DNA from: Thuidium tamariscinum
Lineage: Eukaryota > Streptophyta > Bryopsida > Hypnales > Thuidiaceae
Reading direction: 5' to 3'
Assembly: GCA_947034885.2 (NCBI GenBank)
Contig: OX344751.2
Coordinates: forward strand, 36,197,582-36,261,581
DNA length: 64,000 nucleotides
The notes beneath the pieces are model-generated. The model saw nothing but the letters and a program-made list of their open reading frames with translations, was not told the DNA's origin and searched no databases. The stretch's first letter is position 1; the number at the start of each line of letters is the position of its first letter. Made by a program: the position numbers and the translations under genes. Shown here in pieces: positions 1 to 63,147 of this stretch.

Positions 1-380
1 AATTCTATAAGTTGCTTTTTGAAGAAGATGCTTAGATTGCCCAAAAAACAAGATTGTCCATAACTTTTTCATTATTAGTCCAAATAGGATGAATCAAAGC
101 TTTAAATGTAGACAAAAACATAATCTTTCAGAAAAAAAATTGAAAAAAAAAATTTCATTTTTTTGTGGGTTTTTTTTCTGCCTGCCGAATTGCTTTTTTG
201 ACTTCGGATGGCAAAACTTCTCCTCCCAGGCACTGATTGAAAAAAAAATTATATTTTTAGAAAGCTGATGTGATTCCCTATCTTCGAAAAAAGTTTCAAA
301 AAATCAGGTCAAAATTTCAGGTCACACAAGCCTGCCCAAAATCCCAAGTGTCCCCCGAGGGGACTTTGGGACTTTAGGGG
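1..380 (+). mobile_element. Right-hand part of a TTAA-type repeat, cut by the window edge
   Basis: Bases 1-380 match 19073-19453 on the same strand with many small differences. Both begin at AATTCTATAAGTT and end in CTTTAGGGG (the second copy has TTTTAGGGG). In the second copy this end is followed by TTAA; here it is TAAA, so the target repeat has decayed. It is therefore the right end of the same non-coding element family as 18270-19453, and its left end lies outside the window. Confidence 0.7.
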
Positions 381-5938: not shown

Positions 5939-6572
5939 CTCCTAAATGCCTAAGGTCTATTTTTAGCTTCTTGGAATTTGCTCTAAATTGAACAAAAATC
6001 CAACATTTTGATAAGTTGAATCAATTTTTTTGAATTGTAACCGTATAAATTCAAAATAGACATGTTAGAAATGACATAGGAAAAGAAAACACAACAATAT
6101 CACTTATGGATTGAAAGATTATAATGTTTGATCATGAGGGTGTAAAAACTATGAAAATCTTTGAGCTCTCTTTTAGCATGTCAAATCTAAAAAGTTGGTC
6201 ACTAAAAAAAATGAGGTTGAAGGGCCTAACAAACATAACCCCAATCAATTTATGGCTTCTCAAAATCTACTCTACAATTTTTTTAAATGAATTTTTAGTG
6301 TGGTTTTTTCTCTAAGATCTAGTGTATTTAAGGCTCATTTCCAAGAGTCCTTAACACTACAGAATGTCAAGATTGCAATGGGTACCCTTGCACTAAATCT
6401 TGAATAGAAAAATCATAATCATTCATTTTCAAAATCGGATTATTGATGCTAAAATTAGACTTCAAAAAGAATCTTCCAATAATATAAACTACTAAAAATA
6501 GAAATTTGGTAAGATTTTATTAACTTCAAAGTTTCTTTGACACCACTTTTGGGTGTCTTGGGCATTTAGGGG
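5939..6572. mobile_element. TTAA-bounded non-autonomous element (short member, about 634 bp)
   Basis: Ends are inverted copies: left CTCCTAAATGCCTAAG, right (read inward) CCCCTAAATGCCCAAG. TTAA lies immediately outside on both sides (5935-5938 and 6573-6576). The interior is AT-rich and non-coding. The end sequence and TTAA boundary match the family described at 18270-19453. Confidence 0.65.
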
Positions 6573-11108: not shown

Positions 11109-11393
11109 CCCTTGAAGGATGGACCCATGGCCGTGGAAATCATGCATTTTGATACCGTGTGACAACATCTGCTTTGAATAAGTTAAATATACTCATTTGA
11201 AGTCAAAGTATTGTAGAACATCTCCCCTTTCCACTCGTAATACCGAGGATGAAAAGTTGCAGATCTGTCCTATAAAGAATTATATTCTATTTAGAATTGT
11301 AAGTGCATCCCCTTTCCACCTGTAATACTAAGGATGAAAAGTTGCAGATCTGTCCTACAAAGAATTATATTCTATTCAGAATTGTAAGTGCAA
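11109..11393 (+). repeat. TTAA-bounded repeat end with an 85-bp tandem duplication
   Basis: The repeat starts at 11109 with CCCTTGAAGGATGGACC, directly after TTAA at 11105-11108. Its first 170 bp or so match the reverse complement of about 59810-59974, whose end is also followed by TTAA. Inside it, 11224-11308 and 11309-11393 are near-identical direct copies with an 85-bp period. The far end of the element cannot be placed. Confidence 0.6.
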
Positions 11394-17748: not shown

Positions 17749-18130
17749 GTTCAGAACCACTCATTCAGTCCACGGGCAATTTCGGAGCATTTGAACGTTT
17801 GCTAATGACGTGTCGGTGTGCGTTGGCAGCTTGGCCCTGAAGTAGGATACTTGTTGTCGTAAACCTCGGGATGACTGTGCGGAAAGGGGAGACTTTCTAC
17901 ACTGAATAGGGATTGTAAGGAGACCAAAAAATTGAAAGGATTTATTTTAGAAAATTGTAGATGTTTGAAACATGATGTACAAACCCTGCAAACTTCAGTA
18001 ACTACTGACGTACACAAAAAGTAGATATTTTTACAATGTGAAATGTCGATTAATTAGTATGGGTCCCGTAAAAAATCCTATTCAATGTACACTACTTTGA
18101 TTTTTGATGAGTTCTTCTAGGTTTTTTTAT

Positions 18131-18269
18131 ACCAATGATTCCTTCTATATCAAAATGGATGATATTCAAGGTCACCATTCTATCGTTTTAAGGGTTAAAA
18201 TTTTTTAAACCAATGATTCCTTCCATATCAAAATGGATGATATTCAAGGTCACCATTCTATTGTTTTAA
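18131..18269. repeat. 78-bp tandem duplication next to a transposon insertion
   Basis: The unit beginning ACCAATGATTCCTTC occurs at 18131 and again at 18209, nearly identical over about 55 bp. The first copy runs on into TTTTAAGGGTTAAAA. The second copy is interrupted at the same TTAA (18266-18269) by the element at 18270-19453. The two copies therefore act as an empty and a filled site. Confidence 0.8.
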
Positions 18270-19453
18270 CCCCTAAAGGACTAAGGCATTTTCTGGCTTG
18301 AAAACCACTCAAAACTGCCATGTTTTCTACTTCCACCCAAAAAAACAAAAAAAACAGTTTTCTTAGAATCTAACTGTAGGATCTTGTAAATTACTTGTCT
18401 GAGATCATGTGGTAAGAACTTCATGAAGTTTGACCGTACCGATTGGAAGATATTAGCATTCAAAGTTGGAAAAAAAAGTTATTTGAACTCTAAAGTGCAA
18501 TTTAAGATGACTTTGACTGCCATTTGTTGAATTTTCTTGCACTATAGGCCATGAAGTTAAATTTTTTTATGTTGAACATTTGAGTTGAGGATTAGGGAAA
18601 AAAATTCCAAACAAAAATTACTTGATTTTCATTCATTAAAAAATTGTTAAGTAGAAGTAGGTCCAAGATTGAACAAAACACTAAGTTGTTAATAACTTTA
18701 ACCCTTTAACGACCAGGTCGATGACTGATTACTCAAACTGACAGATTTTCATCACTACCAGACTGGCTATTAAGAGCAAGCCCACAGTTGATTCCCCAAA
18801 CAGGGACGTCAAGTGGGGGCTTGGCTTGTGGTTATGATGGCTGCGACCGGCCTCCTTAGGGCCAGTCACCCGTGTCTCTGCAGCTTGGAGGGCTTGCTCT
18901 AATGAAATTGCGTCAGTTTGCCACTTTTTCGTAACCCATCATCGACCTGGTCGTTAAAGGGTTAAGATGTAATTGGAAAACCATAATTCCAACAGTAGGC
19001 TTGTTCTTGCAAACATCCTAAACCCTATCAAAAAAGAAAATTTGAAAAATTTGAAAAATTGCATTCAAAAATGAATTCTATAAGTTATTTTTTGAGGAAG
19101 GTGCTTACATTGCCCGAAATACAAGATTATCCATAACTTTCTCATTATTAGTCCAAATAAAATGAACCAAAGCTTCAGATGTAGAACAAACATAATATTT
19201 TTTTAAAATAAATTTAATAATAAAATATTTCTTTTTGTATTGTTTTTTTCTGCCCAGCAAATTGATTTTGGGACTTAGAATGGCATAACTTTTGCTTCCA
19301 AGCACCAATTGAAATTAAAAATTATATTTTTTGAAAGCTAATCTGATTTCCTATCTTCAAAAAAAGTTTCAAAAAATCATAGCAAAATTTCAGGTCACAC
19401 AAGCCTGCTCAAAATTCCAAGTGTCCTCCAAAGGGACTTTAGTCTTTTAGGGG
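18270..19453. mobile_element. TTAA-specific, piggyBac-like non-autonomous element, about 1.2 kb
   Basis: The left end is CCCCTAAAGGACTAAGG and the right end read inward is CCCCTAAAAGACTAAAG. TTAA flanks it at 18266-18269 and 19454-19457. The interior is AT-rich and non-coding and contains a second, nested element at 18702-18961; without it the host element is about 0.92 kb, like the relatives at 20696 and 62213. TTAA targets with CCC-starting ends are the known signature of the piggyBac superfamily. No transposase is encoded here, so mobility would have needed an enzyme from elsewhere. Confidence 0.75.
18702..18961. mobile_element. Nested 260-bp TTAA-type MITE
   Basis: Perfect 23-bp terminal inverted repeats beginning CCCTTTAACGACCAGG, with TTAA outside at 18698-18701 and 18962-18965. 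Further internal inverted homology (AGAGCAAGCCC near 18774 and its complement near 18889) makes a long imperfect hairpin. The interior is more GC-rich than the host element. It lies inside 18270-19453 and is therefore a later insertion. Confidence 0.85.
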
Positions 19454-19457
19454 TTAA

Positions 19458-20695
19458 GGGTTAAAAAGACAAGCTTGTGATTGTACAAATCATCCCTTTT
19501 GACACTTTGTCATTAATTCATTTACAAAATTCCAAAAGCACTCATTGGAAGTTGAATATCTTTCGCAAACTCATTTTTTTCCCTTAGGTGCCTACTGTAG
19601 AGTAGAATACAGTGATGCAAATTTTTTGTCCATGTCATTCTAAAATTAATAAATGATCTATCTATAGAAATAGGCCTAAACTTCAAATTGCAATAAAATA
19701 TCCAAGTTCTTAAAAATGAAATTTCTTAACTAGACTTGATAAGCTTTATTTTACTAGTTGATCTCAAATTCCAAAATGATCACTTTTGACACTTAAATCT
19801 ATATACAATGCACAAAGCACAAATTGCTGAAATACACCATCTTGTGATTCTTGAATTCAAGCAATTCTACCATTTTTTTCTCATTTAAGCTCTTCCAAAA
19901 AGTATTTCATTCCTCTATAAAGTGTTTCATGAGGCAATAACACTAATATGTGAGCATGAAAATTTAAGCCTATGAGCTTTGAGCATATGTATAAGTAGAT
20001 ATTCTACAATCATTGAAGGTGCTTATAGTATAAATACCAATAATATAGGTATTTATAACATAAGTATGATGTAATCATAGAAGGTCTCTATAATAAAGAC
20101 ATTTATGATATAGGTGTGTAGACTCTTAAGCTCACTTGTTCATGATTCTAGACTTATGTAGTAGCACCTATACTTCATGAGGTGCTCCTTGAACCTTGTA
20201 TCAATATTGACAACATTTAGGCTAATAATACAGAAAGGTTTGTATTTATATTCAACGGCATTCAATAAGACATGGTACTTGGACCAATTTGAATCATTCT
20301 TGCACCTCCCACATGTCTCCCAAGCCTCAAAATGATCATGTTTATCTATTTATTTGGTGTTGCATTTGAACATGACAAGGTTTAGATATTAATTGTTGAA
20401 TTGTCAATCCAACAATTTATATCTTATCATATTGGAGACATAATTTTTATTTTAGAAGTCAAATATGGCACCAAATATATGGTTCCTAACAAATCTTAAA
20501 GGGACATCATAGGGATATAGTTGGAGTGCATTCAATTGCATTGGCATTGACATTTAGTTCCCTAATAAGATATTCCATATTGTTAATTTCCAAACCAAGT
20601 ACTCCACTTTTGGCCGTCCACACATATGCATTTTTGAGGTGAAATTCTTGGTTTAGTGTATCTTAAGAAAGTCAATTAGATTTGGCGTTAATTAA
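19458..20695. other. AT-rich intergenic DNA
   Basis: No gene, hairpin or repeat copy recognised between two TTAA-type elements. Stop codons are frequent in all six frames. Confidence 0.5.
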
Positions 20696-21619
20696 CCCCT
20701 AAAGGATCAACATGCGTTTTTTGGCCATATAGAAAATTTGGGCAGGTATGTGTGATTGGAAATTTGAATATTTTGGGCTGAAATTTTAATAGAAGGTGGG
20801 GGCAAGGAACATCTTCACATGTACCAAATTTCATGACATTTGGAAATATGAGTCAAAAGTTATGGCCTAATATGTTAGTTTTTTCGTAACTAGGCAGTCC
20901 AGGTAGATAAAAAAAAATCACTTTTTTTAAAAACTAAAATTTTAAACTGATTTTCTACGTTTATATATAAGTGGAAAGCTTTGAATCATTCCATTTCAAT
21001 CAAAGAATCAAAAGTTATGAGTTTTTTTTGTTTGCGGGCAGTTATAGATTCTCCAATATTAAAAAAACTTTGAAGTCGTTTATTTCACTCAATTTTCAAT
21101 ATTTTTGGAAAGAAATAAAACCCTAGGCTGTAGATCAATTATTACAACATTACTAACAATTGGGATTGGCATTTTTTAATTCCATAATTAAATTCTTAAC
21201 AATTTAGTATTATGAATCATTCTCTACTTCTTTCTACTTACTATTTTTTTCCTATATGTTGTACAATTCCAAATGATGTGAAATTTTTTGAGCATATCCC
21301 CATCTTGTTTAGGAAAGAGAATTCAAAGAAGCACCACCATTTTTGACATTTTTTCCTTGAAAAGTGAGCTTGTGAAGTGCGGCTGCCCAGTTTTTTGCAG
21401 GATTGAACAAATGGTTTTGGTGAATTTGAATGCTTATATCTTTTGATCCACAAGGTGAATTTTTTTGAAATTTATACCACATGTTTTCTAGACATTATAC
21501 TACAAGATCCTATGGTTACATGTGTCAAAAATTATTTTTTTCAAGAAAATTGGTAGTTGTACTAGAAATGGCAGTTTTGGAGAGTTTTTGGTGAATACAT
21601 AGTCATGAAACTTTAGGGG
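20696..21619 (+). mobile_element. TTAA-bounded element, about 0.92 kb
   Basis: Starts CCCCTAAAGGATCAAC and ends GAAACTTTAGGGG, with TTAA on both sides (20692-20695 and 21620-21623). Much of it matches 62213-63147 in reverse orientation, for example AATAGAAGGTGGG and CAAAAGTTATGGC. The interior is non-coding. Confidence 0.7.
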
Positions 21620-28601: not shown

Positions 28602-31600
28602 TGTGGTACAATACTCATCATTCATTGTAAGAATTTCCAACATTATAGGATTTGTAGCCAACATAGCAATGGAACTATTGTGGGTATAATCATACTTCGG
28701 TAAATATATGCCTTCAAACGTGTAGTCTTAGACAAGGGCAAAAAAGAATTATATCTGTCTTTATTCCCTCTGTAAAGGAATGTTCCCACTTGCTCATAGC
28801 GGGGAGTCTTTGTTTTAGGTAGGGCACTTTGAAGCTGGAAAACCCTTTCTTTTTCATACAACTACTGGTTCGGACAGTCTCCTATTGGTTCGGAAGTTGC
28901 TCTCTAGACTCAAGTTGTTGTAATGCATGCAAAGTTGTTGACGTCGAACATGCTTTTCCATGTACTTGCTGACACGGCGTGGAAGTGTAGAACAAAGTTC
29001 ACGTTTGTGTTTCCCTTGGGAGTGTTGGGCTTGTACAAATGAGTGTTGCTGCATCTACCTCTGTCTATGAGCAGTTGATCACGAAGTCAATGTTGATGAG
29101 TAAAAATCTTTCAGTGCTATTTGTGCAAGTTAGCTCATATTGTTTTGGTTTCGTTGAGCACTACGAATGTGCACTATGTGCCGATAAAAAAGGTCGATTG
29201 GTTTCCTTGGTAGCACTTTCGTGTTTTCATGCACAGAGTCTTGCAACAGAACTCACAGTCAATATTTTCCATAATGGACGTCCTAAACCTTTGTATGTTA
29301 AACTTGCTAGCTTGCTCCAAAATCTACGTGGCGTCTTCCCTCTTCTAATGTAGCTCTGACACTGCATGAAGGAGAGAACTTGTCATTACAACCACATGCA
29401 CCATCTTGCGTCGCCCTCCACTAGACCTCCCACGTAGGCTCGGCAATGAATAAAAACTGCAATTGTGAATACTCTCTACTTGTAGAAGAAGTTCCTCTCT
29501 AAAAATGCCACCATAACAAGTGGGAACATCCCTTAATCCCAAGGATTTTAACTACTCTTATGCAGGACGTTAAATCCTCCATTCAAAGTGGGCCCAACAT
29601 GGTAAATTTTGGATTCTCTGAAGTAAAAGTGAAAAAAAATCCCCTATTTTGAGCCTTGTGTAATGTGTGTTCTAGACCTCCCCTTGCTAATTTGGGGTCT
29701 CTGATTGCATATGTGAATTCAGAATTTGCAAAAAAATTATTTGCAAAAAATAAAAAAATTCATGCGTTTTCCCCTGAGATAAATCCACCCTGCTGGGCCC
29801 ACTTCGAATGGAGCTATTTAGCGTCCTGCCGCTCTTCCTCGGAGGATGGTAATTAATGTGTTCTTTTCATGGTTTGCATTATTTTGCAATTATTTATTGG
29901 CAGATAAGTGCAGTTGCTTTCAAAACCTCACTCAATTGTGCACAACTGGTGGAAAATGGAGCTGAAAATGAAAAGCTTTGATGGTCTGGAGCTGGTACTG
30001 AACATCAGCTGGACTCCAACCAGGGCCAATGAGTCTAATTGCTGAATGAGTGATCCAAGTAAAAGGTAAGGTAGGAGGTCCTGAAATGGAGCGGGCATTA
30101 AGAATGGACCCTATAAATGGTAGTTGAATGGACTGGATGTGGTTACTAAATTGACCTCCGTAGTCATTGAGTGAACCAAGAAAAATATTATTCATTATTC
30201 TAAGAGCCAATCATTTTTCTTGCTTTTCCCATTTTTCTTTGGAAGCTGTAGTGAATACTTTAAGAAGGACCTAGGATCATAAGTAGGGACCTATGACACA
30301 TCTCGTTTGAAAATTCATAACTAATTCAAAAATGATTCAAAAAATGTAAAACAACTTGGGTTAGATACCAACTCCTCTTGTCTTTCAATAAAAATTTACT
30401 GAAAAATATTTCAAGAAGTTTCACCTGCCCAAAATTCAAATTCAGTGCTTAGATGGTCCATTTCAAGACCTTCTACCTTAGACAAGCCTATTATAATTTG
30501 TAATCTAATTATCTTAGGGCTAATTCCAAGAGGGGCACATACTTTTTGAAGTGTGCTTGTTTCACGAATCAAACTCCCAAGTGGGTTTATAATTTTTCAT
30601 TAAAAATTGTAATTTTTGTGAGTTTTTGAAATGGTGTGCCTTGAAATTACAAAATCGCTTATAGAGTGGAGTCATAAACACCCTACTAGCAACCCATGAC
30701 CACCTTGGATTGTATTAATTACCACTTCAATATCCATCAATCAAAGATTGACATGTTAACCAAATTGAAGTTAATGCATTCATTTTATGATAAAATAATT
30801 GGATTTGGATGAGTTTTGTGGTAAAATTAGGGTCCAAAAAAGGATAGTGAAAGTATGTAGCTGGTGGACATAGGTTGGTCTACCTTACATGAGTTCTTCA
30901 TTCATCAAAAAATCCAAGAACGTTTAAGGTATGTGGAAATATACACAAAGGCTCTAATGTTTAGAGTAGGAGCACCTGGACAAATTTTCACAACAAAAGT
31001 ATCATGTGAAATGGCATTTTACATGTTCAACCATCCTTCTAGGCTCTACTTGAAGTATCATTGGTGGCTTACCTAATACTTTTTTTGAAGAAAAAAAAAC
31101 AGAATTTTTTACAAGTAGAAATTACATTACCACATCCTCTTGTACTTGTAGTGTATAACTATCAATCATGCAGTTAGTAGGTGGATCCAATTCTAGCACT
31201 TTTTCAATTAAAAGTAGTACAATTAATTAGAGCCCACATTTGTTAGGTGGACATTACTACACTTTTCTAAATGTATAAAACCTTTTTGAGTGTATAGTCA
31301 TTGTGTGTACTTAGAGTGAATAGTGTCACAAGTGCAAATACAAATTCAGTGCAAATTATACATTCAATATTTAAAGTAGCACATGTGTCATTTTATTATT
31401 TATTGTTAAAGTTTTCCATGAATATTCATAGCCTTGGCAGAGGTAATTTTTTAATGCACTACGTCTATTAACTCATGCATTGCTATGAAATGGAATTTTC
31501 CCTTCGACTCATGGAACCACTCCTATGACACTAGTGTTTGCATCATTGGTTTAGTGTATGTTTTTTTGGATGAACATTTTTTTATGTCATCTTTTTTTCA

Positions 31601-31922
31601 ATTGAAGTATAAACTGGTGAATGCTGAACTTCTTCATGCACATATGGTTTTCCTCTTTTAGCTTCATTTTTCATGATCTGAGACAGCGGAGGTCCTATCT
31701 TTGTAAACATGAATGTCACGTAACTCAGTGACGTTTGCCAAGGTTGATAGAATAGGGACTTCACAACATGGGAAATAATGTGACAAATACATAATGGTGC
31801 ACATAGCATAGCCCACATAGGCAGTGATCTGTATTTATGTACAATGGCAAATGCTACTTGAGCTAGGCACCTATCAGATGTATAGTACAATTGTATGCTA
31901 GACACAAGATTATTGTAAGAAT
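28602..31922. other. Intergenic DNA with repeats and one unsupported small frame
   Basis: Between about 28640 and 29540 the composition is less AT-rich. It includes an ATG-started frame at 29039-29353 (104 codons, CALC motif in the middle) with no recognisable family, no partner exon and no domain. I do not call it a gene. The remainder is AT-rich background plus the dispersed repeat listed at 29530-29850. Confidence 0.4.
29530..29850 (+). repeat. Dispersed repeat, copy 1 of 2 in the window
   Basis: Shares long stretches with 45670-45956 on the same strand, for example GACGTTAAATCCT, AAAAGTGAAAAAAAA and AATCCACCCTGCTGGGCCCA. The two ends of each copy are inverted relative to each other (TTAAATCCT near the left, AGGATTTAA-like near the right). 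It is therefore an inverted-repeat element of about 0.3 kb. Confidence 0.6.
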
Positions 31923-32138
31923 CACTAGTAGGAAACCCCATTTAATGTAACAAGGCCTAATTTTTCTTGACGGATTTTGCTAGGCATCAAAAGTAACAAC
32001 CCATGTTTTTATGTCAGCATTGATGTTGTGTTGAACATTTTTCTTGACATAAAAACACGGGTTGTTACTTTTGATGCCTAGTAAAATCTGTCAAGAAAAA
32101 TTAGGCCTTGTCACATTAAACAGGGTTTTCTACTAGTG
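31923..32138. mobile_element. CACTA-type hairpin MITE, 216 bp
   Basis: Ends are CACTAGTAGGAAACCC and its near-complement (GGGTTTTCTACTAGTG). The two arms are inverted and nearly identical for about 85 bp around a short loop. AAT occurs on both sides (31920-31922 and 32139-32141), a 3-bp target duplication. Non-coding. Confidence 0.85.
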
Positions 32139-34536
32139 AATGTTGCAACCCATACATTGACAACATAATTTGGTGAGAAACATAAAAGGAAGGCACCTAC
32201 TTAGCTGCAAGAAAAGAATCATCGCTTGACAACCAAAGCTCCCTAAAATGGCATCTTGACTGTGGTTCTTATACCTCCATGAAAATCACTGTTCTTCTAA
32301 GGTGTAATATTACAAAGATATTGTACCACTTTTACAAATTGGCGCCTTTAATAAAACGTTAGCATCCAACCCACATAAATTTGGATACTGATATAATGAT
32401 TCTTGATTCTAATCAACAATTCAGGTTATTAAAATTCCAGTCTTGAATTCATAATTCTTGATATTTTCAACATCTTCATGAATTTTGGAATACTCATCCA
32501 TGGATTTGTATGCAATAGGGTTCTTTGAATTCTTCAGCATTTGTTGTTCAAAAGCATATGCCGGTGTCATAAATTGCAAATCAATGTTCCACACCAAACA
32601 ACAAAAAATCAAAAAAGAAAACTAGCCTCCACCAAAACTAACACACATATTACTCAAAAGGCTTCTATTTGGACATCCACGTAGAGATTATTGCACAATT
32701 CATTTATCCAATTTTAATAAGTCAAAACATAAATCATTGGACTGAAAGAGAAGGTTCACCAAACTCTAGTGAAGAGGATGGGAAGACGAAGAGTAATATG
32801 CCGAATAGTCTCTTTAGTCTTGGATGATTGCCATATACATGGGGACATCTAGATGGACGGCTAATATTTTTTTTCCATTTTAAATTTTCTAGAGGAGGGA
32901 AGGAGGGGAAGTTTCATAACACCATGCATTGAAACAAATTCTATTTAGTGAAATAAGATGACATAGAGGTACTTCAAATTTCAACAATCATCTACTTATT
33001 GGAAAATTTGATGGCAAAGAAGGGTTGTTTGGGAATTGTTCTTTGTATTGTTTGTAGTGTTCTACTTATTGTGTCAAAACTAGGAACTGGCCATTGCTAC
33101 TTGAATTTTTTTATTTTCAAAAAAAATTTCAAAAATTTCAAAAAGCATTCAAAATTCAATTTTTTAAATTCAAAGTTTGAAAACAATAATTAATTAACAT
33201 TATTTGATATGGCATGATCTCAACCACATCAACTTGTTGATGTAGCGTGTTTCGACAATCTAAGAATAGTTTGAGGTCTTAAAAAGGATTCAAGAAAACT
33301 TGTTAGCTAGTTTAGCCCCAAAATGTATTCTAATGACATTAGCACATATCACATGTCCATGATTCTATTTTCATCTAAAAGTATTTTTTAATTTGAAATT
33401 TTCTAGCAAAAAATCTTCATAATTTGTTGCCTCTTTTTTTCCAAATTATTTTTTTCTAGTGCAATCTAAAACTATTATTAAAAAAAATCCATGTTGCAAG
33501 TGCCTAAGATCAAAGTCTTTATTTGGCTAGGCTTGGGTTGATATTTGGAATTGGCATATTTGTACTAGGGGAGATTTTCAAGAGGCAAGTTTTGCATTCG
33601 CTGGGTGGGGATCATACTAAAAATGGTGGAGATGTTGTAAGTGAAGATGACATAATGTTCTACTATCCAATCACTATAATTTGTACCTTGTCAAATGAAC
33701 CAACCATGTCCTCTTCAAAAATACTAGACATCACCTTGAAATAAATCTTGAGAAATTTATTATATGGCTCTACAATGGGTATATAGATATAGATATGGAT
33801 GGCATACATTACATACAAATATTGGTTATAGATATAGATACAAATATGGATTCATATTCCTTATCATATATGTTTTGTTTCTAAATTTGAAATATGAAAA
33901 GTAAAAGAGAGTGTGAGATTTGGAAAATTTGTTGAGATATGAAAATGCAGGGGATCTCTTGAATGACTATCCACTTACTATTTCCATCCATTCAAAAAGA
34001 CTAATGATATATTCTACATTCTATACATCAACAATTAGGCTTATTTTTAGTGGTGGTTTTGCGTTAAAAACAACTATTGATAAGGAAGAATAGAATTGTG
34101 TAAAAAAATTTCTTGCTTTGAACATTGGAATTGGAAGAACATTGAAGTAATGTGCATTAAATTGCCCTTGTTTTAAAAGCATCTTCAAACAAATTAATAC
34201 ATACTAGAATTTTTATTGAATACATCCACAATGAACGTTTTAGGATGAAAATACTTCTAGAACAATCCCAATTCCAACTTCATTTAGAAAGTTTATAACA
34301 AATCCCATATTAAAACTATTTTCAATTTCTTTTTTCTTCCTTTGTATACCTATCTTTACTCAACATTTTTTTTAAATGGACATTGAGTTTTTTTAGTGTT
34401 ATTTTTTCCCCATACATTCTCATTTGATTGACTAAAATATAAAGTTCAAAATCCTAGCGTAAAATTTTCAAGTGTAATTTCATGTGATTGAATATGCATT
34501 CAAAAATTTGTCCCTCACTACCTACATTTTTTTTGA
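32139..34536. other. AT-rich intergenic DNA, no gene recognised
   Basis: No supported gene. A 73-codon frame at 33523-33744 starts without ATG and has no convincing family match. The part near 33340-33410 resembles 17450-17550 weakly. Confidence 0.45.
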
Positions 34537-45312: not shown

Positions 45313-46750
45313 AGCTCACGGGCTAGAAATTTTCAAGAGTAAGGAAGAAAAATTGGGGAATTGTAGCAAACAATGTTCACAATTCGCCAACAACAATCGG
45401 TGAATTCAAGCAGAACTGGGTCTTCGGTTGAAGGGCTAATGAGGACTTGGGCGAAGGCGTCGGGCTTGGGTGAAGAAGAAATGGAACTTGCGCAAGGCAT
45501 GGGCAAAGTACAGTACCATGCTATCAGGGTCAGCACTCATATTATTTTAATTCTAAAAATGGATGCCAAATATTTTTGGAAATGTGTTTTGCACTTTAAA
45601 AAGAAATTGTATTCTTAAAAGGAATGTTGCCAAATATTGATTGAGTATTCTTAGCTTTTGGCAAATTAACCCTGTAAGGTAGGACATTAAATCCTACCAA
45701 TGAAGTGGGGCCAATAGGATGGATTTAGGGTTCCCTTGGATAAAAGTGAAAAAAAAGCTCCATATTTAGTGCCATGTGTAGGGTATATTCTATACCTTTC
45801 CTAGTTAATTTGGAGCTTCTAATTGCAAATATGAATTCAGTTTTTTACAAAAAAAGTTCTTTGCAAAAAATAAAAAATTCTTGTGTTTTCTCCTGAGGTA
45901 AATCCACCCTATTGGGCCCACTTTGTTGGTAGGATTTAACGTCATGCCCTTGTAAGAATGTTGTGGATTAGAATGGTCCATTGGATGATATGGAATTCTT
46001 GCATATAAGAGATAAGTGCTATTGTTTATCTTTGAAATTTTGTGCAAGAAAGTGGAGGTCGTGAATAGTAGTTTGGTCAACAATGAATACTTTTGAGATT
46101 TTAAAAGTAGATGGTTGACATTGTTGCAAAGAGGATGATTTCCACAAAGACCACCTTGTTGTTACAAGATTAAATTGTGATTTAGCAAACAATGCCAAAC
46201 TTAATAGTCAAGTAGAATATTCATAATCATCATTTTACTTGAAGGAGTTCTTTTCATAAATAGGAGAATGTAGGTATAGAAATTTTAAAGGTAGATGCAC
46301 CTTAAATCATGAATAAAAGTGTTTTGTGTGCCCAAATTGTGAAAATTTTATTCTTTAAATTCAAAAAATTCAAAAAATAATAAAGAAAGTAAGTTGTTGA
46401 AAGTAGATTTTTTTTCATTCAATGAATATATAATAAATTTTCAAAAACAACAATTTTTTGAAGGTTCTTGCAATAGGTCATAGAGTCTTTCGTGAGAGGG
46501 TTAGTAGCATGTGAGCTCAGAATCTTGAGCCTATGAGCCTTGACTCCTAGCTTGCATGGTTGTAGAGCATGTATTTATACTTAGGCTCAGGGATTGCAAG
46601 CTCACATTTTTAGGCTCACATGCTAGTGTCATTGTCTTTAGGAAACAATACATTTTAATCCTTGAAGTAACAAAAAATGATGCATGAATAGCATCATTCT
46701 TCAGTAACTACTTTAACCACCGACTCAAGCTTTAAATAGGAAATGAATGA
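45313..46750. other. Upstream region of the SDR gene and intergenic DNA
   Basis: The first few hundred bases include the probable promoter of the minus-strand SDR gene. Beyond that is AT-rich DNA with the dispersed repeat at 45670-45956. A stretch near 46500-46620 carries several AGCTCA/TGAGCC words in both orientations (TAGGCTCA, GTGAGCTCA), probably a decayed inverted repeat. No gene. Confidence 0.45.
45670..45956 (+). repeat. Dispersed repeat, copy 2, TTAA-bounded on the left
   Basis: Same-strand relative of 29530-29850. The left end CCCTGTAAGGTAGGAC follows TTAA at 45666-45669. The left (AATCCTACCAA, GGGGCCAATAGG) and right (CCTATTGGGCCCA, TTGGTAGGATT) regions are inverted copies. It may belong to the TTAA-type group, but the right boundary has no clear TTAA. 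Confidence 0.55.
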
Positions 46751-47013: not shown

Positions 47014-47052
47014 GTTTATATAAAATTTTGGTTTGTAACACAAGTCTATTTT

Positions 47053-47259
47053 CACTAGAAGAAAACTGCGTTGAATTCCATAAAAACGCGTCAGGTTGTT
47101 TGTGTTGAGTTCCTTGTTCAAAACGCAGTGGAAACGCAAGAAACACAGGAAAATGCAGAAAACTGCATTTTTTTGCGTTTCCACTACGTTTTGAACAGGG
47201 AACTCAACACAAACAACCTGACGCGTTTTTATGGAATTCAACGTAGTTTTCTTCTAGTG
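47053..47259. mobile_element. CACTA-type near-perfect hairpin MITE, 207 bp
   Basis: Ends CACTAGAAGAAAACTGCG and complement. The two arms are inverted and almost identical along nearly the whole length, meeting near 47155. TTT flanks both sides (47050-47052 and 47260-47262), consistent with a 3-bp target duplication, although T runs make this weaker. The end sequence matches the element at 28449. Confidence 0.85.
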
Positions 47260-50200
47260 TTTAGAGACTTGACTTTTCAAGGTATGACTACCTTAAGCAA
47301 ATGAATCCTCTAATGTCCACCCAACAGTTATTGGACAAATTCATATCATAGTATTTTAAAACAAATTTTTTTAATCATTATTGAACTACAAAATGATAAT
47401 CTACAAATTAAACCTTTTTGTTGAGACATTGTATTGAAGATTCCCATGTAGAATGCATTTTTGATTGAATGCATTCCCATCTATAATGTGTCAAAATTAG
47501 CCAAAATCAATTGTTGAAGAACTTGGATGTTAGAATCTTATATCAAAGTGTTTTGGAATCCATTGGATGGATTATAAATGTCTTCAAGATCTTATTGTAG
47601 GAACTACAAATATCATTGAAGAAAGTACCTCCAAATATATTGAAAATATAATTTATCTATTTCACAATAGTGAACTATCATGTTCACTCAAGGCTTCATA
47701 GCTTTTGAGCAAAGTTTTGAACCAATTTCGTATATAGATGGAATGAAAAGAAAATCTTGCAAAAAGATCTTAGTTTTAAATTTTTCATTCACCATCAAAA
47801 ATTCCAAATCTAAATTTGTCATCTACTAGTAACATTTAAGGATTAAATTACGAAGAATTATAAATTAAATGAGTATATTAGCACTATTATTAAATGGTTT
47901 TTTTAATATTTTTTTATATCTCTAGTAAAAAAAAATTGCAATGAAATCAAGTTTCAAAGTGAAAAAGAAATCAAATTTTCAATGTGCAATGTAAGTTCAT
48001 ATTTGTCCATATATATCCAATACCTTTTGTAAGGTTGTTAGCACTTTTCTTTTTAAAAAAATATGTAAAAATAGGACTTTTACTTGTAATTCAGAATTTC
48101 AAAAATTATAAGATAAAGTTGGTATGACATCCATATCCAAATATATATGTATATGTATATTCAAATAGAACATGGAACAAGTCATGGGATAGTTGATTGG
48201 CAATTTTAGTTGCTTAGTTAGTGAAAGAGAAATCAAAATTTGTTGAAAATAGTTTAATTTTTTTTAATTGAACATTAAAATTTTATAGGCTTAATTATTC
48301 ATTTGATGATATACATTTTTTATAAGCAATAAATAGATTTTACAATTGATAAGTAATTGCAATGTATTTATTCTATAACAATTTATTTGAAAATTCCTTG
48401 CTAAAGTGCAAGTACTAAATGCAAAATAGATAATCAAACTCAAACTTACATTTTATTTTTAAAAAATTCAAATCTCTTAATTGTCATAATTAATTAAGGC
48501 TGAAAATCATACAAGAATACGTAGAAAATGAAAAGCATCAAGCAAATAGCTTATTAAAAATTTTAAATTAATCAAATCAATTTTTTAAATGGGATCACAA
48601 ATGAATTTAAAAAAATCTTTATATCGGTTTGAAGTGGTTCAAACTGGAACATGTAATTTAACTTGCAAGGTTTGCAATTAGTTAAATAATATACACTTTA
48701 CATTTATTTTTTAAACTAATATTAAATTCTTTAGCATTTATTGTGTTTTTTTTATCATTTAAATGAATTTGTTGTCAAAAAATGTTTTTGTATTAATTAT
48801 AATATAATTTCATGCACATTGAATTCTTTTGTAAAGACAATGTAGAGGTGTCACCTAACATAATTCATAACAAGGTTTGAACTTGTTGAAGTTTTTGTTT
48901 TTTAATTCCAATTCTTCAAAATTAATATGACTATATTATTATCTTTTCTAAATTATTTTACTTAAAAATAAAAATATAGAAAATCTAAATTTATGCATCT
49001 ATAAGTAATGTTTGGCATACAATTATTATTTATTTAGCTTTTAAATTTATAGGTTTATAAAATTGATTGTTGAAGTTAAGTAATATTTTCTCAAGGGGCA
49101 CTTAGGTTTTTTTTACCAAACAATGCCAATTTAATATAGATAATTTGATCTAGGGAGGTATTAATTCATGGTGATAAAAAATTGAAAAAAACTTTGGGAT
49201 GATATACAATGTACAAATAAATACACTCAATCATAAGTAAGATACGTATGTAACTAATACCTTATATTTATATTAAAATTCTCTAAAATACCTTGAAATA
49301 TAAAGATATTACAAATTAATTGTGAGTAGGGTCAATTTATAGGATTGTTAATGTGCTTGATTGAATGAAAAAACATTCGTAATGGTCAAATAGTATAAAT
49401 GAATTGAAGACCTACTCTTTGTTGGTGGTTTTAGAATGTGATCCCCTTCTGCTAGAATCCTCTTTTTTAGGCTTTGAATGTAGTTTAAGCCCATGCTTTT
49501 ACTTTGAAAGTTTAATTAGAGTTGCATTGAATTTCTCTAGTTTATTGCACTTGGTTTGATACAACAATTTAGGATTAGTATTTCATATATATAGTGTGCA
49601 CTCAATCGTCATTTGTACAGTGTTTGATGAGGAATTTATACAAGTAGGGAATCTAAGAGACTTCAAGATGTATGGGATTTTATTTGGCTTAGGAGGGTTA
49701 ATACCTAGGGTTTCCTACGAAATTTTGGGTGTATTGGTTTAGGTTTGGATTTAGGCCTAGGATTTATTCTTTAAAGTTTGAGGTGATGGATTTATACTTT
49801 TGGATTTAGAGATCCTTTATCTTTCAATATTTCTTTATTGTAGTTCTTGTTGGATTTTAGAGTAATATTGAAGGAAAGGTACATCAAAGTATGGGCCCTA
49901 AATTCTTTAATCCTATCTATATTGTAGAGTATAACTTGTCCAAAAGATTCCTGGAATAAGCTTGAAGTAGCTAGTCAAGGTTGGATGAACAAAGTTTGGG
50001 CAATTTCTAGTACAAGTGCAAATTGAAAATAATTGCACAATTTGGTAGTTTGCTTAGGTGGAATATGTTGTCCTTCATAGTTTGATCACTTTATTGAAAT
50101 TTTATTGAAAAGACAGTCTTTTTAGTAAAATTTTACTTAAAAAACACATTAAAAGACATTACTTAAAAGACATGATGTCTAGGACACTACTTAAAAGACC

Positions 50201-51055: not shown

Positions 51056-51267
51056 CACTACAAGAGAGAGGGGTATTTTAAGTATAATCTTAAAGATAAG
51101 ATTTTAAGTAATGACCTTTTTAGGAGATTTTAAGTAAGAAATAAGTGTCTTTCTAGTAAAATTTTACTAGAAAGACACATATTTCTTACTTAAAATCTTC
51201 TAAAAAGGTCATTACTTAAAATCTTATCTTTAAAATAATATTTAAAACACCCCTTTCTCTTGTAGTG
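51056..51267. mobile_element. CACTA-type hairpin MITE, 212 bp
   Basis: Left end CACTACAAGAGAGAGGGG, right end its near-complement CCCCTTTCTCTTGTAGTG. Arms of about 95 bp are inverted and nearly identical. GAA stands on both sides (51053-51055 and 51268-51270), a clean 3-bp target duplication. CACTACAAGA is the canonical start of plant CACTA elements. Confidence 0.88.
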
Positions 51268-56744: not shown

Positions 56745-57677
56745 CTAGTTTCAAGTCCAATTCAAAGTGTTGTAACTTTTGCATTTAATGTCCAATTTCA
56801 ATAAAACTTACCAAAAAATTGTACACTTTCTTCTAGTTTTAATAATAATTTTTTTAGATCAATCCAAGATGTAGTGAATTTTTAGGAGACAATCAAAGTT
56901 CACATATTTAATTTGAATTCACCAAACTACATTTAATGGTTGCAACTTTAGGGGCTTATATCTTCTTCATCTAATGTTTATTTTTAATAAAAATTTGTTT
57001 GTTTTTCTTCCCCTTGAAGTCTAGTTGTTGTATTAAAAAATTCATGTCAATCCAAAATGTTCTGAATATTTGGGAGTGATTCAAAGCTTCAAATCTCAAC
57101 ATTTTTGTATTATAGTTGCCTTTTGTGGCTTGTTCTTCTTCATACAATGTCTGATTCTAATATAAAATAATTTGGAAAGTTGGGCAATCAAGTCTAGTTT
57201 GTATAGTTTAAAAATTCATGTCAATCCAAGAAGTTAAGAGTGACTGAGCAACATTTTAGTAGAAGGAAGTTTAGCCTTAAGTGTTTTTTTCGCAACTTAT
57301 TTCTACTATTTTTTGACATTTCAAAGTCATTTTGTAGACATAGTGAGTCAATTGAATGATATTTTTTTCACCAATATGTTTTTATGTTGGTTTTGAATCA
57401 CTTCATAGTTTAGAATTCTTTTTCATTTGAATAGATTTTAAAATTGAAATTCACTTCCAATTGTGTTTAAAAGAAAATTTGAGCATCTTTTTCCAACACT
57501 GAAACATTATAATTTTACAATCTATGTGACCAAAATACTCCTAATTTGATTTATATCATTGACAACACGTACACTATAGTATTGTATAGTTGAAATTAAT
57601 ATACCTTAGTGACATTTCGAATTATAAGACTTCAAAGGGAATGACTTAAATCCAAAAATGTTGTAGGCCTTTAGGGA
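56745..57677 (+). mobile_element. TTAA-type repeat, inverted partner of 61204-62168
   Basis: Matches the reverse complement of 61204-62168 along most of its length (AGTCCAATTCAAAGTG, ATCAATCCAAGATGT, AGTCAATTGAATGA). The right end is AGGCCTTTAGGGA followed by TTAA (57678-57681); the left end is not clear and may be lost. Inside, three imperfect units of roughly 170-190 bp recur, each with an AACTTT...AATGT and a TCAATCCAA phrase. Confidence 0.6.
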
Positions 57678-61203: not shown

Positions 61204-62168
61204 ACCCTCAAGGCCCAAGGCCTTTTTGGGTTTAAAAACATCTTTGCTTTTCAAGCCTTATAAATTTACATGTCACTAAGGTATGAAAACCTCAACCATA
61301 CAATCTTATAGTGTGCATGTTGTAAATGATGTGAATCAAATTTGGAGTCATTTGATTGCATAGATTGCAAGATTATAATGTTTTTGTGTTGAAAAAAGAT
61401 ACTAAATTTTTCTTTAGAACACATTTGGAGGTGAAATTTGATTTCTAAACCTAATCAAATGAAAAAACTTTAAACTAAAAAGTGCTTTGAAATCAACATA
61501 CAAAGACATTGGTGAAAAAAATTGTCATTCAATTGACTCATTGTTGTTTGTAAAATGACCTTGAAATAGTAAAGAGATAGCAAAAAATACATTTATGATT
61601 GAACCTCTTTCTACTAAAATGTTTCTAAGTCACTCATAACTTTTTGTATGGATATGAAATTTTAGCCACACGAACTAGAATAAAATGTACAACTTTTTCA
61701 AAAGAAGTAAATTAGAAATGGACACTGTATGAAGAAGTAACAAGTTGCCAAAGTTCACTATAATCCAAAAATGTATTGTTTTTGAACTTTGAATTGTTCT
61801 CAAACAATCAAAACAACTTGGATTGCCATAAAAAATTTACCACAATAATAGAACTTCTAGAGAAACATAATCCAATAAATTTTATTAAAAATAAACATTG
61901 GATGAAGAAGATACAAGCCCCCAAAGTTGCATCCATCAAGTGCAGTTTGGTGCACTTAAATTAAATATGTGAACTTCAATTGGTTTCCAAAAAGTTGCAC
62001 ATCTTGGATTGATCTGAAAATCTTACCACCCAAACTAGAGTAGGATGCACAACTTTCTCAAAAAAATTTATTAATAGAATTCAAACATTGGATGCAAAAG
62101 TTATAGCACTTTGAATTGGACTTCTAGATTATGTGAGGCTACTTTTGAGCCCCTTGGACTTTGAAGGG
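61204..62168 (-). mobile_element. TTAA-type repeat, about 0.96 kb, inverted partner of 56745-57677
   Basis: The right end, read inward, is CCCTTCAAAGTCCAAGG with TTAA outside (62169-62172). The left end is ACCCTCAAGGCC beside TTTAAA (61199-61204). It contains three imperfect units with the recurring phrases ACTAGA(A/G)TA and TGGATGAAGAAG. Non-coding. Confidence 0.6.
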
Positions 62169-62212: not shown

Positions 62213-63147
62213 ACCTTAAGTTTTTTTTTACAATGTTTTCACCAAACATACTCCCAAATTGCCATTTTTAGTATAAAAAGTAAATTTTGGAAAAATAAAA
62301 CATTTTTAGACAAATGTAACAATTTAATTTTGTAGTATGCTGACTTGAAAACATGTGAAGTATTTTTTAGGAATTTCCACCATGTGGATTCTAAGATATT
62401 AGCATTTGATTTGACAAAAATCCTATTTTTGGCCTTGCAAAAAATTGCAATACTATACTTCACAAGCTCACATTTGCATGAAATAAAGTCCAAAATGGTG
62501 GTGCTTCTTTAAAATTATTTTTTTAAGGCAAGTTGGATACATGCTTGAATAAAACTCAAATCATTTGGAATTATACAACATATAGGAAAAAAATAGTAAG
62601 TAGAAAGAAATAGAGGATTATTTAAAATGCAAAATTGTTAAGAATTTAGTTATAAAATTGAAAATTGCCAATCTCGATGGTGACAATGTTGTAATAAAAA
62701 ATCTACATGTGATGATAATATTTTTCTCAAAAAATATTGAAAATTGAGTAAAATAAAGGACTTCAAAGTTTATTTCAGAGTAGAAAATCCGTAAGGCTAT
62801 CCACAAACATGGCAAAAATTTCTCATAACTTTTGAATCATTGATCAAAATGTAATGATTCAAAGTTTTTCATATATATTTTAATCTAGAAAACTAATTTC
62901 AAATTTTCTTTTAGGTAAAAGTGATATTTTTTCAATTTGCCCAAACTACCCATTTACCAAAAAAATAACATATTAAGCCATAACTCTTGACTCAAATTTC
63001 TAAATATCTTGATTTTTTGTGCATATGAAAGATATTCCTTGTTCCCACCTTCTATTAAGTTTTGGGTCAAAAATATGGAAATCTCAAGTCACAAGTACTT
63101 GCCCAAAATCACTATGTTGCTAAGTTTACCAAGTGGTCCTTTAGGGT
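62213..63147 (-). mobile_element. TTAA-bounded element, about 0.93 kb, inverted copy of 20696-21619
   Basis: The right end, read inward, is ACCCTAAAGGACCACTTGG with TTAA outside (63148-63151). The left end starts after TTAA at 62209-62212. The interior matches 20696-21619 in reverse for most of its length (AATAGAAGGTGGG, GAGTTATGGC). It lies only about 45 bp from the previous element of the same group. Confidence 0.65.

Follow-up and report, generated by a model that had tools for sequence, protein, structure and literature searches.

The 1184-bp element at 18270-19453 (+) of the window, that is, of the whole 64,000-nucleotide stretch of DNA analysed, is very probably a non-autonomous piggyBac transposon and, to judge from its sequence, a shortened relative of a transposase-coding piggyBac element found in the same genome. 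The assignment draws on its inverted ends (CCCCTAAAGGACTAA... and ...TTAGTCTTTTAGGGG), on the absence of a long reading frame within it and on its copies elsewhere in the genome.

TTAA-flanked elements in the window

The ends of the main element begin with CCC(T/C), and the same end class is found on coding elements of the genome. With the TTAA included, the inverted ends are 19 bp long and complementary at 18 of 19 places (95%). No stop-to-stop frame of at least 90 aa overlaps 18270-19453, in agreement with the sequence-only reading, which had described the element as non-coding. Without a nested insert and one TTAA, the element measures 920 bp.

The main element interrupts one unit of a tandem pair. 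The arms of this pair (18123-18191 and 18201-18269) are identical at 66 of 69 positions with a period of 78, which bears out the 78-bp tandem duplication claimed by the sequence-only reading; because the arms begin at 18123, the repeat starts 8 bp ahead of the position 18131 given there. Unit 1 (18123-18200), with its TTAA at 18188-18191, reads uninterrupted across the TTAA into GGGTTAAAA. Unit 2 breaks off at the left TTAA copy (18266-18269) and picks up at the right TTAA copy (19454-19457), which is followed by GGGTTAAAA at 19458-19466. These nine bases complete the second 78-bp unit, so two full units are present. Thus, one copy that is uninterrupted and another that is broken at the same TTAA by 18270-19453, as had been reported, could both be read directly. 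The sequences past 19466 and past unit 1 are dissimilar, as judged by eye.

A chance test, in which every tetramer was taken as a flank and sites 100-2500 bp apart were compared for inverted 14-mers matching at at least 12 places, returned 32 matches among 999,797 site pairs. TTAA contributed 11,104 of the tested pairs and 10 of the 32 matches, some of the latter being overlapping pairs of one palindrome. Additionally, a scan of the window for the terminal motif without the TTAA requirement found 21 sites, 10 of which, including all four exact matches, are preceded by TTAA (the rate of TTAA in the window is 0.8%). Against the piggyBac reading, the remaining 11 sites lack a preceding TTAA; all of them are one-mismatch matches, and one, at position 380, is the end of another copy of the main family with a degenerate TTAA. 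This copy, the right part of which lies at 1-380 (+) and is cut by the window edge, is 82% identical and has TAAA after its GGGG.

A related 924-bp TTAA-flanked element occupies 20696-21619 (-). It is 72% identical to the main element over 119 bp and 71% identical over 159 bp to a coding element described below (L064), and its 21603-20721 segment is 75% identical to 62230-63123. Further relatives of approximately 0.9-1 kb were observed at 61204-62168, 56753-57677 and 62230-63147. TTAA was seen on both sides of 61204-62168 and on the right alone for the other two; 61205-62123 and 57676-56753 are 75% identical.

Several other repeats were observed in the window. A 634-bp TTAA-flanked element with the ends CTCCTAAATGCCTAAGG and CCCCTAAATGCCCAAGA lies at 5939-6572. 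A TTAA-bordered repeat with the ends CCCTTGAAGGAYGGACC is present at 11109 (+) and 59974 (-); its two copies are 86% alike over approximately 160 bp, and one of them carries an 85-bp tandem repeat. In addition, elements of approximately 270 bp at 45681-45948 and 29564-29830 are 77% identical, with 45-bp inverted ends on the first, and long imperfect, foldback-like palindromes occur at 51056-51267, 47041-47271 and 31913-32148 (93%, 84% and 85% self-complementary, respectively).

Genome copies, the nested element and coding relatives

The 363-Mb assembly (19 contigs, with the window on contig C3) was searched with the main element, which yielded 6011 first-look candidates, 40 scored candidates and 84 matching pieces. 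Tabulating the flanks of such copies had been set beforehand as a test of the piggyBac assignment. The same terminal bases recurred, and among 30 loci read on ten contigs, TTAA stands outside the left end in 27 and outside the right end in 29. One of the left misses is the window copy (L001), whose alignment was anchored on its right half, and the window itself reads TTAA there; the others are a locus with a cut alignment and hence an unread end (L005) and one with a degenerate end (L010). At the single right miss (L018), the final G was lost and the TTAA is displaced by one. Two copies of the 920-bp family (C10, C6) are 0.3% apart, and the window copy is the most diverged among the 29 aligned, with a mean difference of 8.5% from the others.

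Inside the main element, a nested 260-bp piggyBac-type element that had escaped the sequence-only reading lies at 18702-18961 (+). It carries CCCTTTAACGACCAGGTCGATGA at both ends and is bordered by TTAA at 18698-18701 and 18962-18965. The insert corresponds to query positions 433-680, and, the window copy aside, none of the pieces listed covers this stretch. In the alignment of 28 siblings, from which L005 was excluded because its alignment was cut, the nested site is a single TTAA in 27 copies and TGAA in one, and the siblings' flanks there are those found on either side of the insert in the window copy. This comparison of filled and empty sites is cleaner than that of the tandem pair and owes nothing to it. 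All seven full-length genome copies of the nested family are flanked by TTAA, with dissimilar flanks over the 12 bp compared. Four of them lie on different contigs: those on C10, C5 and C3 (the window) are identical, and the C9 copy has one mismatch. In the search for a coding partner of the nested element among the full-length elements L051-L054, L064, L065 and L066, the best match was 13 bp.

For the main element, a coding element matching both ends to the terminal base was found on contig C7 (L064:1592-6726, 5135 bp). Positions 1-299 of the main element are 69% identical to the last 299 bp of this element, and positions 819-920 are 78% identical to its first 102 bp. Moreover, in the three of 28 siblings that were compared, the left match to L064 sets in at base 15 with the register unchanged (73%), and that on the right extends as far as the terminal base (72-82%). 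The five other full-length elements (L051, L053, L054, L065 and L066) gave matches of 15-28 bp, none of them at the ends of the main element. A 774-aa open frame of L064 matches the piggyBac transposase 6x67 (E 8.9e-33), with three catalytic Asp residues aligned; for these positions, which we take to be Asp 268/346/447 of 6x67, the numbering was assigned manually along the alignment. The PF13843 match within the element lies at C7:1357340-1358488. The DDD transposase gene with the same ends that the sequence-only reading had proposed to look for is therefore present, and together with the genome copies it substantiates the view of that reading that insertion at TTAA with duplication of TTAA is the piggyBac signature. 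Because both ends are common to L064 and the main element, and because L064 has a 774-aa piggyBac frame, the main element is best regarded as a shortened relative of the L064 lineage. As the ends are only 69-78% identical, L064 counts as a member of the same lineage rather than as the established parent or current helper of the main element.

The PF13843 profile search of the genome gave 116 scored matches over the curated cut-off among 658 candidates, distributed over contigs C1 to C10, and no match in 14 control genomes. The transposase domain is stop-free in 16 of the 20 loci read, and the motifs around all three catalytic Asp residues are recognisable in 19, the second Asp motif being unmatched in L035. 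These 20 loci form nine groups at 80% identity, and the lowest pair is 38% identical. Cys-rich C-termini are visible in the transposase translations, and Pfam named no domain there. The transposase neighbourhoods showed no convincing end pairs in loci of approximately 4.2 kb, because the elements are approximately 5 kb long; wider stretches gave pairs. Seven of the eight wider stretches read yielded an element with paired ends, L051 and L052 being one family, and the L063 stretch showed no convincing end pair. The coding elements measure 4.9-5.6 kb and have open frames of up to approximately 1000-1100 aa.

The L051/L052 element is 5088 bp long, with TTAA flanks, the ends CCCTGAAACGCCGG and CCCCTAAACGCCGG and a 1009-aa frame, the protein of which matches piggyBat (3.2e-27) and piggyBac (1e-22). 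The L051 and L052 copies lie on contigs C2 and C1 and show 99.96% identity over 5096 bp, both TTAA counted in; for seven more loci of this element, the identity is 99.95% or higher across the 3980 bp compared. Such near-identical copies of other piggyBac elements imply recent movement of piggyBac elements in this genome.

Three further observations concern the coding loci. A second open frame of L052 (6718-7560, -), 280 aa from TTG, overlaps the start of the transposase frame and has no Pfam match. On contig C8, two transposase genes of one group (L036/L037, C8:23933884-23934996 and C8:23941055-23942167) have equal scores and lie in opposite orientation 6 kb apart, with a third member of the group on C1. 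L035 / L066 (C1:38155060) has a stop-free piggyBac domain in which the second catalytic-Asp motif is unmatched, and it would appear to be a broken or repurposed copy.

The movement of the main element can be pictured as follows. A transposase from the coding lineage, acting in trans, would bind the ends of the main element, excise it and insert it at a fresh TTAA, with no duplication beyond those four bases. Later, the 260-bp element would have jumped into the 1184-bp element by the same kind of reaction.

Alternative assignments and the history of the tandem pair

The TTAA target is common to piggyBac and another superfamily, Kolobok (PMC6004289), which makes a Kolobok element the obvious competitor. 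In the available sections of that paper, Kolobok ends begin with two purines (AG; AGGRR in the T2-MITE of Xenopus), whereas the main-element ends begin with CCC; CCCTT is the commonest start among piggyBac ends in the available sections of PMC10813416. Moreover, the ends are shared with L064, whose encoded transposase is of the piggyBac type. On the terminal bases and this transposase, Kolobok was dismissed as extremely unlikely. A misread target of TA, TAA or TTA, with an element starting with A or ending with T, would instead point to a Tc1/mariner-like or PIF/Harbinger-like element, and a single empty site indeed cannot tell TTAA+CCCC from TA+ACCCC. Across the copies, however, the outer T and A are constant (27 of 30 left ends, 29 of 30 right ends and 7 of 7 nested copies), whereas a TA target leaves the outer bases free. 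Tc1/mariner was dismissed for this reason and PIF/Harbinger, with its 3-bp TAA/TTA target, because the 4-bp TTAA stands on both sides, so a misread target is hardly credible. Chance or an assembly artefact in one window would also have to be considered if the 13-bp flank match, which is short and partly repetitive, stood by itself; the caveat in the sequence-only reading that GGGTTAA makes this match partly low-complexity was fair. The flank match has no bearing on the nested insertion or on the copies elsewhere in the genome, and an artefact is refuted by the thirty loci, spread over ten contigs, which share these ends apart from the misses described above and have different flanks; its probability is negligible.

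The assignment to piggyBac leaves the history of the tandem pair to be weighed. The sequence-only reading took the pair as a record of the site before and after insertion. The filled and empty units are indeed seen, but insertion is not the sole possible history, since seamless excision from unit 1 gives the same picture: the element would have been duplicated with the 78-bp unit and would later have left unit 1 without a footprint. piggyBac can excise in this footprint-free manner, and the tandem pair, a sample of 69 bp, is compatible with it. At 61 sites (6.6%), the window element departs from the majority of the 29 copies aligned, with a FastTree terminal branch of 0.079, whereas the tandem units differ at just 3 of 69 sites. 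With a duplication as old as the insertion or older, approximately 9 differences are expected, and the probability of 3 or fewer is 0.014 at 6.6% and 0.003 at 7.9%. This shortfall tends to favour a duplication that arose after the insertion, and therefore either gene conversion, which can homogenise tandem units, or excision from unit 1. When C-to-T and G-to-A changes are left out, however, the rate falls to 4.2%, at which P is 0.16 with all 3 differences and 0.017 with the single one (counted by eye) that is then left. In addition, the private differences of the element may partly predate its insertion, the flank may mutate more slowly than the element, and the sample is 69 bp. Excision from unit 1 is therefore a possible but rather doubtful history.

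Comparison with known piggyBac systems

piggyBac is best known from animals and has mostly been studied in them. To our knowledge, OVATE is confined to plants; one match over the cut-off was found in the genome (E 8.6e-18) and none in the 14 control genomes. In the window, an OVATE fragment scored 24.5 bits against a cut-off of 25, and a potato-inhibitor match was weak (18.5 against 24.5). The window also has exons of a PDI-like thioredoxin, an aquaporin, an ankyrin and an SDR, none of which is plant-specific; a protein search with the ankyrin gave no indication of the host. Overall, a plant host is likely.

The kind of element described here is already known in the literature. piggyBac-type elements may be rarely described from streptophytes, as the sequence-only reading had suspected. 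In the available parts of several papers, plants are named among the hosts of piggyBac-like elements (PMC8086355, PMC10813416), and piggyBac is listed among the superfamilies of plant DNA transposons (PMC10794571) and of angiosperm MITEs (PMC10004981). These parts describe no full native element, and among the open-access matches listed no title or opening of an abstract reports a full-length or recently mobile native piggyBac of a streptophyte, subscription literature and Repbase lying outside this scope.

On balance, it seems probable that this genome harbours a native streptophyte piggyBac system with recent movement that possibly continues today. The system would comprise a number of deeply separated transposase lineages whose frames are open, 5.1-kb coding copies that are nearly identical and two or more gene-less passenger families, one with both ends of a coding lineage and one inserted in the other, and the tandem pair might record a seamless excision in a plant germline. 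Because piggyBac can leave no scar, it serves as a genome-engineering tool; in rice, the insect element is functional (PMC4309413, in the sections available). A native, recently mobile plant piggyBac, if true, would provide plant-adapted transposases to test, would widen the known distribution of a superfamily examined for the most part in animals and would allow piggyBac families with and without genes to be compared within one genome.

Compared with piggyBac (PDB 6x67) and piggyBat (PDB 9c0f), the elements share the TTAA duplication, the CCC(T/C) ends and, in the coding relative, a PF13843 DDD transposase. They differ from piggyBac in that the host appears to be a plant, in the length of the coding elements (4.9-5.6 kb versus the 2472 bp stated in the accessible part of PMC10813416) and in frames of up to approximately 1000-1100 aa versus a 594-aa chain. 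The fern Ceratopteris is likewise a non-seed plant, and its repeat table gives 1230 'PiggyBac' copies with a total of 122 kb (PMC6890710); in contrast to that table, which is accompanied by no full element in the available parts of the paper, the genome studied here has complete elements, transposase frames that are open and nearly identical copies. The piggyBac-related MITEs of animals, such as those of coral (PMC2872659) and Daphnia (mPok, PMC4912750), are likewise short, non-coding and of the piggyBac group. As far as the available parts of these two papers allow a comparison, the main family differs from them in its length of approximately 920 bp, in keeping approximately 300 bp from one end and 100-200 bp from the other end of the coding element and in residing in a plant-like genome.
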